From assembly GCF_001581005.1 (NCBI RefSeq), contig NZ_LHZV01000058.1, forward strand, positions 1 to 64,000: 64,000 nt of DNA, written 5' to 3'. The translations under genes and the position numbers were made by a program. Positions 59,101 to 62,715 of the stretch are shown here, one piece after another. The stretch comes from Acetobacter orleanensis. GTDB taxonomy: Bacteria; Pseudomonadota; Alphaproteobacteria; Acetobacterales; Acetobacteraceae. Numbering within the stretch: position 1 is the stretch's first letter; every line of letters starts with the position of its first letter. Under the pieces are notes generated by a model. The model was not told where the DNA came from. It ran no database searches and worked only from the letters and a program-made list of their open reading frames with translations.

Positions 59101-59313
59101 TTACTGAACCTTGTCAGTCGGAGGTGATGCGGGTGCAGCGGTCGGAGCGTGATCGCCCTGATGGGCTACGTCTGCGTCGTCTTCAGGGACTGGAAGAACG
59201 GTGTCTTTGCCAAAGCGGTTGTCAAACCAGTGCATCAGAGGCGTGCGGAAATAATAAACCACGATTGATGACCAGATGATGAGCGCAATGATGGCAATAA
59301 CCAGATTCAGCAT
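59101..59313 (-). CDS. Small membrane protein, unknown function
   Basis: 70 residues: one N-terminal membrane helix (LNLVIAIIALIIWSSIVVYYF), a short basic/aromatic segment and an acidic, Pro/Ala-rich C-terminal tail. No family recognised. A longer frame to 59529 overlaps the pmtA gene on the other strand. Its stop codon is one base from the gshB stop, convergent. Confidence 0.55.
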   Translation of the reverse strand: MLNLVIAIIALIIWSSIVVYYFRTPLMHWFDNRFGKDTVLPVPEDDADVAHQGDHAPTAAPASPPTDKVQ

Positions 59314-59465
59314 GACAGTTTTCTTTTCAACCCGTTCTTTCAAGGCGGAAGGTAAGGGCACAATGGGGCCGAAGACAAGGGCGCTTTTATGGCGGCCATT
59401 ATTTAATACAGGGAAGATACGTTGTGGCACTTGAAGAAATGACGGCGAGCAGGCAGAGAGAGAGC

Positions 59466-60155
59466 ATGAGTGACGTTCTCCATGAATGCCCGCCCGGTCA
59501 GGGTGAGGATCCGGTGCCTCCTCCTTCACGCTCGGCGCTGGATGCAGAGGCTGTCAAACTTGCCTACCGTCGGTGGGCTGGCGTCTATGATACCGTTTTT
59601 GGCGGTATTTCTGGCGTTGGTCGCAAGCGCGCGGTGGAAGCTGTCAACGCGCTGCCCGGTACCAAAGTGCTGGAAGTCGGCGTGGGAACAGGGCTTGCTT
59701 TGCCCTGCTACACTCAGAGCAAGAAAATTACCGGCATTGATCTCTCGGGTGACATGCTGGCCCGTGCGCGGGAACGTGTGCAGAAAGAGAATCTGACTAA
59801 CGTTGAAGCGCTTCTGGAAATGGATGCGGAAGAGACCAGCTTTGCTGATGCGTCTTTCGATATTGCCGTGGCCATGTTTGTCGCCTCTGTCGTGCCGCAT
59901 CCGCGCAAGCTGCTGCGTGAGCTCAAGCGCGTGGTGCGCCCCGGTGGCCATATTCTTTTTGTAAACCATTTCCTTGCGCCCAACGGCGTGCGGGGTGTTG
60001 TGGAACGGGGTATGGCACGGGCGTCCCGCTCTCTGGGCTGGCATCCGGACTTTGCCATGGAATCCCTTCTGCCGCCGGATGATCTTGCCCGCGCCCGTAT
60101 CCAGCCGGTGCCTCCCTTGGGGCTTTTTACATTGGTGACACTCGACCGGACGTAA
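59466..60155 (+). CDS. pmtA: Phosphatidylethanolamine N-methyltransferase PmtA
   Basis: SAM-dependent methyltransferase, 229 residues, converting phosphatidylethanolamine toward phosphatidylcholine. It has AYRRWAGVYDTVFGGISGVGRKRAVEAVN at the N-terminus, SAM motif I VLEVGVGTGLALP and ITGIDLSGDMLARARERV, which match rhizobial/Rhodobacter PmtA; acetic acid bacteria are known to contain phosphatidylcholine. Three in-frame starts (59424 GTG, 59439, 59466) exist; the last has GAGAGAG upstream. Confidence 0.9.
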   Translation: MSDVLHECPPGQGEDPVPPPSRSALDAEAVKLAYRRWAGVYDTVFGGISGVGRKRAVEAVNALPGTKVLEVGVGTGLALPCYTQSKKITGIDLSGDMLARARERVQKENLTNVEALLEMDAEETSFADASFDIAVAMFVASVVPHPRKLLRELKRVVRPGGHILFVNHFLAPNGVRGVVERGMARASRSLGWHPDFAMESLLPPDDLARARIQPVPPLGLFTLVTLDRT

Positions 60156-60362: not shown

Positions 60363-61622
60363 ATGAACAAGCAGGCTGCATCGGGTACGGGTGTGGGGGC
60401 AGGGTATCTGCTCATCGCCACGATTGCGGGGCTGCTTGGTGGAGGAGCCTCTGTGCTGCGTCAGGCAGGCATTATGCCAGATGCAGGACTCTGGCCTGTT
60501 CTCGAACAGATCCATGCTCCGCTGATGCTTCTTTTTGTTGTTATTCCGGCGTTAGTTTGCGGCTTTGGCAACCTCTGGTTGCCGAGGGCTCTTGGGCGTT
60601 CCGGGGGTGTGCTGCCAAGCCTGAACTATGCTGGTCTCGGGATGGTTGCTGTTTCTGGTGGTCTGACCGTCACGACGGGCGCGCAGGCTCCGGCTGTTCT
60701 GCTCTGGAGTGTCGGGCTACTCTGCGCCGTGATGGTCCTGCTGGCCACGATTTTTGACAGCCGCGCGGATTATGAAGAGCAAAAGCCGTTTTCTCCGTTT
60801 GTTTGGGGAGAAATGCTGGCTTCTGCCGTTCTGCTGGTGACTGTGCCTGTGCTGGCCGCCGTGATGACGCATCAACTGCTCTCCGGTGCCTCAACATCAA
60901 TCCTTCCGCTTTTGGATGGGCTGACGGAGCCTGTTACCCTTGTCTCTCTGCTGGCCGGGTTTGGACTGGTGTTTGAAGTCGGTGCGCGGGGAAGTCATTT
61001 TTCTGAAAAACCGGTTATCGCGATCATGGCGACAACGGCTGCGGCCTCTGTCATCATCTGGACCCGTGGCGTTTTCGCGCATGGACTGGTCGCCACTGTG
61101 CAGCAGCCGGGCGTTCTGACCTCTCCTGAAAACGCAGTGCTGTTCGCGTCCACGCTGGCCTCTGTTCTGCTGGCGGGTCTGTGGATGGCCGGCGCATGGC
61201 GCAGCCGCCTTTCCCTGCGTGTTCCCATGCTATGGGGCCTTGGTTTTCTGGCTGTTGTCTCCACAGGTTGGGTTGCACAACTGATGCAGGGAGAAGGTCT
61301 CCATTCCGCTCTTCAGCTTGCAGCCGTTTATGCTGCCTTCTGCGGCCTTTACCTGTGGCGCGGAGAAAATGGCGGATATTGGTATCCGCGCGCCCCGGTT
61401 ATTTTGCAGTTTGTGCTGATGGCGACCGCAACTGGGCTGTCCTTCTCTCCGCTTTCCGCCACAACGCAAATCTGGAGTGGGAGCCTGCTGGGCGTGTCTC
61501 TCTTCTGCTTTCTGCTGACTATGGGACTGAGTTTCCTGCAGAACCGGAAAGAAGAAGAGGTTAGTTCTGTGACAACACAACCCGTCATGGTGTCTGTTTC
61601 TAAGGGAACGGTGCAGTCATGA
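60363..61622 (+). CDS. Degenerate heme-copper oxidase subunit I-like membrane protein
   Basis: 419 residues, about 11-12 helices. It aligns with cytochrome c oxidase subunit I by eye: EQIHAPLMLLFVVIPALVCGFGN matches the helix-II region and GEGLHSALQLAAVYAAFCGLYLW matches helix X. His51 and His314 fit the low-spin heme ligands. The high-spin heme His is Gly312, the three CuB His are Glu189, Arg235 and Gly236, and the cross-linked Tyr is Leu193. It therefore cannot reduce oxygen; a single-heme membrane protein is possible. It overlaps ctaB by 4 bases. The start at ATG 60363 has GGAAAG upstream; GTG 60282 is unlikely. Confidence 0.8.
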   Translation: MNKQAASGTGVGAGYLLIATIAGLLGGGASVLRQAGIMPDAGLWPVLEQIHAPLMLLFVVIPALVCGFGNLWLPRALGRSGGVLPSLNYAGLGMVAVSGGLTVTTGAQAPAVLLWSVGLLCAVMVLLATIFDSRADYEEQKPFSPFVWGEMLASAVLLVTVPVLAAVMTHQLLSGASTSILPLLDGLTEPVTLVSLLAGFGLVFEVGARGSHFSEKPVIAIMATTAAASVIIWTRGVFAHGLVATVQQPGVLTSPENAVLFASTLASVLLAGLWMAGAWRSRLSLRVPMLWGLGFLAVVSTGWVAQLMQGEGLHSALQLAAVYAAFCGLYLWRGENGGYWYPRAPVILQFVLMATATGLSFSPLSATTQIWSGSLLGVSLFCFLLTMGLSFLQNRKEEEVSSVTTQPVMVSVSKGTVQS

Positions 61623-62578
61623 GCGAGACCGTAGCCAGCGCTGCTCAGGCAGAGCGTATCCGTTTTAAGGCGGACCGGGTCGGCACGACAGCGAAAGACT
61701 GGGTTCTGCTGCTCAAACCGCGCGTGATTTCACTGGTGGTGTTCACGGGTGCTGCCGGGATGATTATGGCGCCGGGGCACCTGAACCCGTTTGTGGCAGC
61801 TGTTTCCATTCTCTGTATCTGTCTGGCGTCAGGCGCTGCCGGGGCTATCAATATGTGGTATGACCGCGATATTGACGCGGTGATGCAGCGCACCATTACC
61901 CGGCCTATTCCCGGTGGCCGTATTCCGCCACAGGAAGCGTTGGCTTATGGCGTTGGGTTGTCCTGCCTTTCGGTCTGCCTGATGTGGATGGCAACCAATG
62001 CGCTGGCCGCCGGTATTCTGGCCTTCTCGATTTTCTTCTATTCCGTCATTTATACCATGTGGCTCAAGCGCTCGACGCCGCAGAATATTGTGATTGGTGG
62101 AGCCGCCGGGGCTTTTCCACCCATGATTGGCTGGGCTGCGGCAACCGGCCATATGGCCGTGCTGCCCGTGGTGATGTTCGGGATTGTTTTCTTCTGGACC
62201 CCGCCGCACTTCTGGTCACTCTCCCTTTATGCCTGCAAGGATTATGGCCGCGCTGGAATCCCCATGCTGCCGGTTGTCAAAGGGGCGCGGCATACGCGGT
62301 GGAATATCTTTGTTTATACGCTGGTGCTGTTGGCGGTCTCGCTGATTCCGTCTTTCCTGCGTCTGAGCGGCTGGCTTTATACCGGCACGGCTTTGGTGCT
62401 GGGGCTGGGTTTTGTCGCGTGTGCCGTGCGGGTGCTGCGTGAACCGCAGGATGCAACAGGCATGAGCTTGAATGGTGACAAGGCGGCCCGTCTCTCATTC
62501 CGCTTTTCTCTGGCCTATCTGTTCCTGCTGTTCTGCGGGCTTCTGGCTGACCATATGCTGATGGGGTGGATGATCTGA
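61619..62578 (+). CDS. ctaB: Protoheme IX farnesyltransferase (heme O synthase) CtaB
   Basis: 319 residues, UbiA-superfamily prenyltransferase adding a farnesyl tail to heme b. Markers: LLKPRVISLVVFTG, NMWYDRDIDAVMQRTITRPIPGG (first Asp motif), YTMWLKRSTPQNIVIGGAAGAFPPMIGWAA and HFWSLSLYACKDYGRAGIPMLPVVKG (second motif). In acetic acid bacteria heme O serves the bo3 ubiquinol oxidase. It overlaps both neighbours (ATGA and TGATG). Confidence 0.96.
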   Translation: MSETVASAAQAERIRFKADRVGTTAKDWVLLLKPRVISLVVFTGAAGMIMAPGHLNPFVAAVSILCICLASGAAGAINMWYDRDIDAVMQRTITRPIPGGRIPPQEALAYGVGLSCLSVCLMWMATNALAAGILAFSIFFYSVIYTMWLKRSTPQNIVIGGAAGAFPPMIGWAAATGHMAVLPVVMFGIVFFWTPPHFWSLSLYACKDYGRAGIPMLPVVKGARHTRWNIFVYTLVLLAVSLIPSFLRLSGWLYTGTALVLGLGFVACAVRVLREPQDATGMSLNGDKAARLSFRFSLAYLFLLFCGLLADHMLMGWMI

Positions 62579-62715
62579 TGACACATCTGAGCGCGCTCAA
62601 CCCGCAGGAAGTTGCGGAGAAAAAGCGCCGCCAAAAAGACCGGCTGCGTGCCATGGTGGCCTTTATGGTGCTCATTGCCGGTGTAATGTACGGCCTGACA
62701 CTGACGCATTTCTAA
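62578..62715 (+). CDS. CoxF-like 45-residue membrane protein
   Basis: 45 residues: a Lys/Arg-rich start (EVAEKKRRQKDRLRAM) followed by one helix (VAFMVLIAGVMYGLTLTHF). The ATG lies in the ctaB stop codon (TGATG). Size, topology and place right behind ctaB match the small CoxF-type proteins in alphaproteobacterial cta operons. No ctaG or ctaE follows. The sequence similarity is only topological. Confidence 0.7.
   Translation: MTHLSALNPQEVAEKKRRQKDRLRAMVAFMVLIAGVMYGLTLTHF

Follow-up and report, generated by a model that had tools for sequence, protein, structure and literature searches.

Why should an acetic acid bacterium keep a gene for subunit I of cytochrome c oxidase beside its heme O synthase gene, when the aa3 oxidase itself is described as absent from acetic acid bacteria (PMC4007555; papers given by PMC number are cited for the parts available)? 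The question is raised by a 64,000-nucleotide stretch of the Acetobacter orleanensis genome (NCBI RefSeq assembly GCF_001581005.1, contig NZ_LHZV01000058.1, positions 1 to 64,000 of the forward strand), hereafter the window, in which a reduced form of ctaD directly precedes ctaB. We found that the reduced protein is descended from CtaD and that its gene is under purifying selection, weaker than that on ctaB. Moreover, because the oxygen-reducing centre has been lost yet exactly the pair of low-spin heme histidines has been retained, the alignments suggest that the protein now carries or positions heme, and that this is not a dead gene. The gene and its two ligand codons are as follows.

60363..61622, + strand: reduced CtaD/COX1-like membrane protein, 419 amino acids (aa), 12 predicted long helices (Pfam, PDB, AlphaFold, Foldseek)
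60513..60515, + strand: codon of His51, low-spin heme ligand, at the start of helix 51-76 (transmembrane helix 2, TM2) in the model; His in 76/76 aligned reduced rows
61302..61304, + strand: codon of His314, second low-spin heme ligand, at the start of helix 313-336 (TM10) in the model; His in 76/76 aligned reduced rows

The 419-aa product belongs to Pfam family COX1 (E 2.4e-11; 43.6 bits against a curated cut-off of 34.8), the sole family matched in a Pfam scan. Against TIGR02891, the model for CtaD, it scores 38 bits, far below the cut-off of 670.75. The nearest relatives in the PDB are subunit I of the Paracoccus and Rhodobacter aa3 oxidases (1e-13). An AlphaFold model from a 29-protein alignment has 12 long helices arranged in the COX1 fold (mean predicted local distance difference test score 79, predicted template modelling score 0.82). 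Moreover, the 50 matches listed by Foldseek are, by title, terminal oxidases or supercomplexes containing one (TMq 0.64-0.77), and Paracoccus aa3 chain 1ar1_A was matched with E 2.0e-9 and a TM of 0.75 by query length.

Canonical subunit I has its low-spin ligands in helices II and X. His51 and His314 match these ligands both in phmmer alignments to the Paracoccus and Rhodobacter aa3 proteins and in MAFFT alignments. The high-spin heme His is replaced by Gly312 in the window (His in ~1% of the 76 reduced rows), the three CuB His by Glu189, Arg235 and Gly236 (canonical residue kept in 0, 43 and 4% of rows) and the active-site Tyr by Leu193 (Tyr in 0%), exactly as an initial annotation, made from the window sequence by eye, had listed them. 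That annotation also held ctaC, ctaG and ctaE to be absent, and the genome agrees: Cox11/CtaG has no match in A. orleanensis, and COX2 and COX3 have one match each, both beside a cyo-type COX1 on contig C18, with no aa3-type subunits II or III. Of the features that mark a heme-copper oxygen reductase we thus found the low-spin His pair, and neither the high-spin His nor the CuB/Tyr site nor aa3-type subunits II and III nor the CuB chaperone.

How selective this retention is can be judged from the 223 columns that are invariant in 10 canonical CtaD, which we scored in the 76 reduced rows. These rows are not all separate organisms (the contigs of L075 and L007, for example, have the same length), and the set leaves out the window itself (L004) and L058, whose frame is broken and lacks the N-terminus; L024, whose open frame extends upstream, was trimmed to its last 450 residues both here and in the tree described below. 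Mean retention of the canonical-invariant columns was 28%, and four of the 223 were kept in all 76 rows: His51, His314, Trp148 and Trp233. One of the other ten canonical-invariant His, at a CuB position, is kept in 43% of rows and the remaining nine in at most 8%. Were the columns exchangeable, the chance of finding both ligands among the four kept would be 6/24753 (~2.4e-4), a rough figure given that His and Trp evolve slowly. We rejected chance conservation on the ground that the ligand pair is among only 4/223 columns surviving in all rows.

The gene has probably been met before under other names. A 'Deranged COX1-like protein' of Acetobacter, clustered with ctaB, is described as being without all metal-binding residues (PMC10715153, citing Matsutani et al. 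2014), and in A. pasteurianus SKU1108 ctaD APT_01775 adjoins ctaB APT_01774 and is entered only as a subunit of cytochrome c oxidase (PMC5158111). Both are equated here with the reduced ctaD by description only. Unlike the 'deranged' protein as described in the available text, the reduced form has an invariant low-spin pair and a gene under purifying selection; the published loss of all metal-binding residues is contradicted because the low-spin pair is invariant, and that statement, as worded in the available text, is corrected here. In 2014 Matsutani et al. reportedly saw A. pasteurianus ctaA and ctaB work in E. coli and judged ctaD to be non-functional, having likely accumulated mutations. 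Our literature search, whose scope excluded most subscription journals, found no report of the retained pair in the texts available, and the available parts of PMC4013037, PMC6431628 and PMC8239418 yielded nothing on the reduced ctaD gene.

Is the gene simply decaying? In 24 within-group pairs the ratio of nonsynonymous to synonymous substitution rates (dN/dS, Nei-Gojobori) was 0.06-0.26 for the reduced gene and 0.02-0.28 for ctaB; dS exceeded 1 in 5/24 pairs, where the ratio is least reliable, and the pairs share sequences and are not independent. The frame of the reduced gene is uninterrupted in 66/67 loci. The sole broken frame, L058 3560-4000, comes from an 85% complete assembly (G327) and has its N-terminal part in another frame, reflecting either an error or decay. 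Apparent internal stops were flagged in further genomes. Those in G131 and G378 came from the search with the window protein; the frames at their loci, L041 and L045, run to 401 and 391 aa, and we take the flagged stop most readily as the normal terminus. A profile search flagged G030, G085, G362 and G214, whose loci L006, L053, L016 and L038 carry a full frame, and also G444, G472, G228 and G408. In the locus alignments, dN/dS and tree, the L004 row starts at an upstream GTG and is thereby 27 residues longer at its N-terminus.

A decaying remnant, retained only through translational coupling of ctaB, would suit the faster evolution of the reduced gene than of ctaB (21/24 pairs), the 28% mean retention, the absence of the gene at the locus of genome G001 and the broken frame in L058. 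Set against this are dN/dS values of 0.06-0.26 in 24/24 pairs (five with dS >1), the uninterrupted frame in 66/67 loci, the invariant ligand pair, and a new common residue, Trp115, which is found in 72/76 reduced rows, whereas canonical L072 has Ala there. The dN/dS and ligand data have largely refuted this explanation already, and we consider it highly improbable; decay was rejected on the dN/dS range and the open frames. The initial annotation had argued for selection for a role and proposed a Ka/Ks and frameshift comparison across Acetobacteraceae, which sustains the argument: dN/dS is low, one frame in 67 is broken, the ligands are invariant among proteins that are often only 25-30% identical to one another, linkage to ctaB is kept, and the gene does not look like a pseudogene.

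The setting of the gene is constant. Its two immediate neighbours in the window are as follows.

61619..62578, + strand: ctaB, heme O synthase (TIGR01473 4.1e-97), the single place above the model cut-off in this genome (G000)
59424..60155, + strand: methyltransferase gene, recurring left neighbour (Methyltransf_11 8.4e-23), upstream in 67 reduced loci

The stop of the ctaD-like frame and the start of ctaB share four bases (61619-61622), and both the open frame and this overlap had been called correctly at the outset. Searching with the window protein gave matches in 351/397 genomes, a mixture of reduced and canonical forms; all genomes searched belong to one family. We extracted 70 loci from this search, of which 67 are reduced (including the window, L004) and three are canonical CtaD (L056, L072, L073). 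ctaB lies directly 3′ of the reduced gene in 67/67 loci, with an ATGA-type stop/start overlap in 52/67, and the methyltransferase gene is upstream in 67/67. Where the stretch is long enough, gshB, a small opposite-strand gene and an opposite-strand Tim44-like gene recur as neighbours. In a profile search of 395 genomes, 119 rows (262-506 bits) stood above the first long canonical frame among the matches listed, and 117/119 of these had open frames of 404-504 aa. The reduced protein is thus widespread in acetic acid bacteria, and its named carriers include Acetobacter cerevisiae, malorum, tropicalis, indonesiensis, senegalensis and orientalis and species of Gluconacetobacter, Novacetimonas and Komagataeibacter; of those named, A. 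cerevisiae and A. malorum have the proteins most like that of the window (81-83% identity). Six genomes of 1.5-2.1 Mb (G210, G449, G029, G066, G070 and G116) gave no match to the reduced-ctaD profile. G210, G029, G066, G070 and G116 also have no heme O synthase above cut-off, and in G029, G066 and G116 the only COX1 match lies in a frame of 785-833 aa, by its length perhaps a quinol nitric oxide reductase.

Where did the gene come from? The reduced protein shares with CtaD/CoxA (aa3 subunit I; Pfam COX1, TIGR02891) its fold, its low-spin bis-His site and its ctaB neighbour, and in some genera the canonical C-terminal tail (NYWG, TLEW) is kept as well. Unlike CtaD it has no high-spin ligand, complete CuB site or Tyr, and its periplasmic segments are shorter. 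We built a maximum-likelihood tree from 68 rows, omitting nine that were partial or near-duplicates; in it a 100/100 branch parts the ten canonical CtaD from all reduced rows. This split fits one origin of the reduced form, in a tree with many long branches whose inner order is unsure. Genome G144 (L056, L159) has, in order, the methyltransferase gene, a 283-aa frame where ctaC would be expected, canonical ctaD, ctaB, Cox11 and, further on, SURF1; since the methyltransferase gene is thus upstream of a canonical ctaD-ctaB, the reduced gene occupies the former place of ctaD. A 520-aa form in G071 (L069/L158) stands at the same locus; its catalytic ligands are lost and its TM9-10 and TM11-12 segments are within one residue of canonical length. 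It is perhaps an early stage of the reduction.

The shortening is one-sided. Taking sidedness from the topology of CtaD and keeping L069 apart, the five cytoplasmic inter-helix segments have median lengths equal to those of CtaD, and 5/6 periplasmic ones are shorter; median residues fall from 53 to 25 in TM3-4, from 41 to 27 in TM9-10 and from 48 to 26 in TM11-12. Retention of canonical-invariant residues is likewise 0.39 in the cytoplasmic half versus 0.20 in the periplasmic half (0.27 without deleted columns). Because the periplasmic segments are trimmed, a bound heme could be less covered. The better kept cytoplasmic half could also be a surface facing CtaB. On such an account the protein would be a structural scaffold that stabilises or positions CtaB in the membrane, its heme serving folding and never being handed on, and the ctaB linkage and selection data would suit it equally. 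A scaffold does not obviously need a complete low-spin ligand pair, and the published wording that all metal-binding residues are gone is contradicted by the alignment. Moreover, we know of no such partner in other bacteria, where CtaB/CyoE functions without it. A scaffold with structural heme is the nearest rival to a heme carrier, and we think it unlikely.

Which heme might be bound? We compared heme genes in 66 chosen genomes: 57 with the reduced gene, three without it (G144, G031 and G077, where a COX1, canonical or other, or Cox11 is found near ctaB), one without it at the locus (G001) and five without both the gene and heme O synthase. Heme O synthase was above cut-off in 61/66 genomes, at one place each; every one of the 57 that carry the reduced gene is among them and likewise has a full-length match to COX1 (best E 2.9e-136 or better), and the five genomes lacking heme O synthase have no COX1 match above 145 bits. 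Profile matches to SURF1 and to Cox11 were found in 0/57 of the chosen genomes with the reduced gene, and each occurs in only 2/66 genomes, G031 and G144, close to ctaB. G000 has no SURF1 match, and membership of the reduced protein itself in SURF1 was rejected, as Pfam gives COX1 alone. Of the 57 genomes that carry the reduced gene, 29 have a heme A synthase match. The other 28 have no match to CtaA, so that heme A is not to be expected there, and it was rejected as an obligatory ligand on this ground. At what we take to be the position of the Arg bonding the heme A formyl, 25/67 reduced rows have Gln and only 11/67 Arg. The ligand set fits heme B or heme O.

These results also bear on a redox or regulatory single-heme cytochrome, one that, for example, takes electrons from quinol or adjusts CtaB or the oxidase by sensing redox state. 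The initial annotation proposed it, and a buried bis-His low-spin heme is in general a typical electron-transfer site. The protein lacks both a second heme site, needed for transfer across the membrane, and any further domain, and among the sampled genomes its presence tracks heme O synthase; we therefore regard such a cytochrome as improbable. Among the other roles then offered, a heme partner or chaperone to the bo3 oxidase fits best, with heme O synthase adjacent and SURF1 lacking; nothing specific spoke for a quinol sensor, and a donor of 'heme O' in particular is not singled out by ligands that suit heme B or O alike.

We tentatively propose that the reduced protein acts as a single-heme partner to CtaB and holds heme that is destined for the quinol oxidase. 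In the ancestor of acetic acid bacteria the aa3 cytochrome c oxidase would have been replaced by a quinol oxidase; ctaC, ctaG and ctaE would have disappeared from the former locus, with ctaB kept as a source of heme O and ctaD retained in reshaped form. Its 12-helix product would bind one heme at the old low-spin bis-His site, with no CuB and no second heme, and would act beside CtaB, whose reading frame overlaps its own in most loci. We infer that heme is bound at this site, that it is heme O, or heme B as substrate, and that it is delivered from CtaB to subunit I of the bo3/ba3 oxidase, the trimmed periplasmic side perhaps making it exchangeable.

In this the protein may serve heme O in the way that SURF1 is believed to serve heme A. 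SURF1 (Surf1c/Surf1q of Paracoccus) is a membrane protein that binds heme A close to the heme synthases and is thought to help load subunit I; it has a large extracytoplasmic domain besides its two TM segments, and how heme A gets inserted into subunit I is given as not known (all PMC9145763, available text). SURF1 and the reduced CtaD are unrelated. A bolder and more doubtful version, though still conceivable, is that ancestral CtaD, shed of its copper and high-spin sites and its periplasmic cover, became a dedicated heme O carrier replacing SURF1, which would take heme from CtaB and load the very quinol oxidase that displaced ancestral CtaD. If so, a heme-delivery factor would be the fossil of its own former customer. 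The locus offers a natural experiment, a subunit I stripped of its binuclear centre by evolution with the low-spin site kept beside heme O synthase, and the question of heme delivery becomes testable in laboratory strains of Gluconobacter and Acetobacter.

Several observations weigh against a heme partner of CtaB. Genome G001 has ctaB and a CyoB-sized oxidase and no reduced gene at the locus: at L154 the methyltransferase gene is followed directly by ctaB, the COX1 match lies in a CyoB-sized 676-aa frame, and neither the window-protein search nor the COX1 search gave a reduced form. L154 is possibly a natural deletion of the reduced ctaD, and since G001 is without the gene, its role is not strictly essential. 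To our knowledge, bo3 assembly in E. coli relies on CyoE without a partner of this kind. The ctaB linkage goes back to the old operon and does not count as independent evidence of function. Few independent events underlie the pattern of presence and absence, and the choice of the 66 genomes was not random: they were picked for having or notably lacking the gene, so that their counts show consistency, not rate. Lastly, dN/dS above that of ctaB in most pairs indicates moderate constraint, and one CuB position is still His in 43% of rows.

Downstream of ctaB the initial annotation had recognised one further frame.

62578..62715, + strand: CoxF-like 45-mer, by position and pattern as in 4/8 canonical-type loci

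This assignment fits: in 4/8 canonical-type ctaB loci an open reading frame starts within 4 bases of the ctaB stop and encodes 42-56 aa, including a cluster of Arg/Lys and a single hydrophobic stretch, the remaining 4/8 having no CoxF-like frame so placed. The 45-mer has no convincing Pfam or NCBIfam match, and frames resembling it lie 3′ of ctaB in some reduced loci. On the other side, between gshB and the methyltransferase gene, a small gene on the - strand (window 59101-59529, its probable start inside the listed frame), without a Pfam family at E 1, is found at the same place in many loci.
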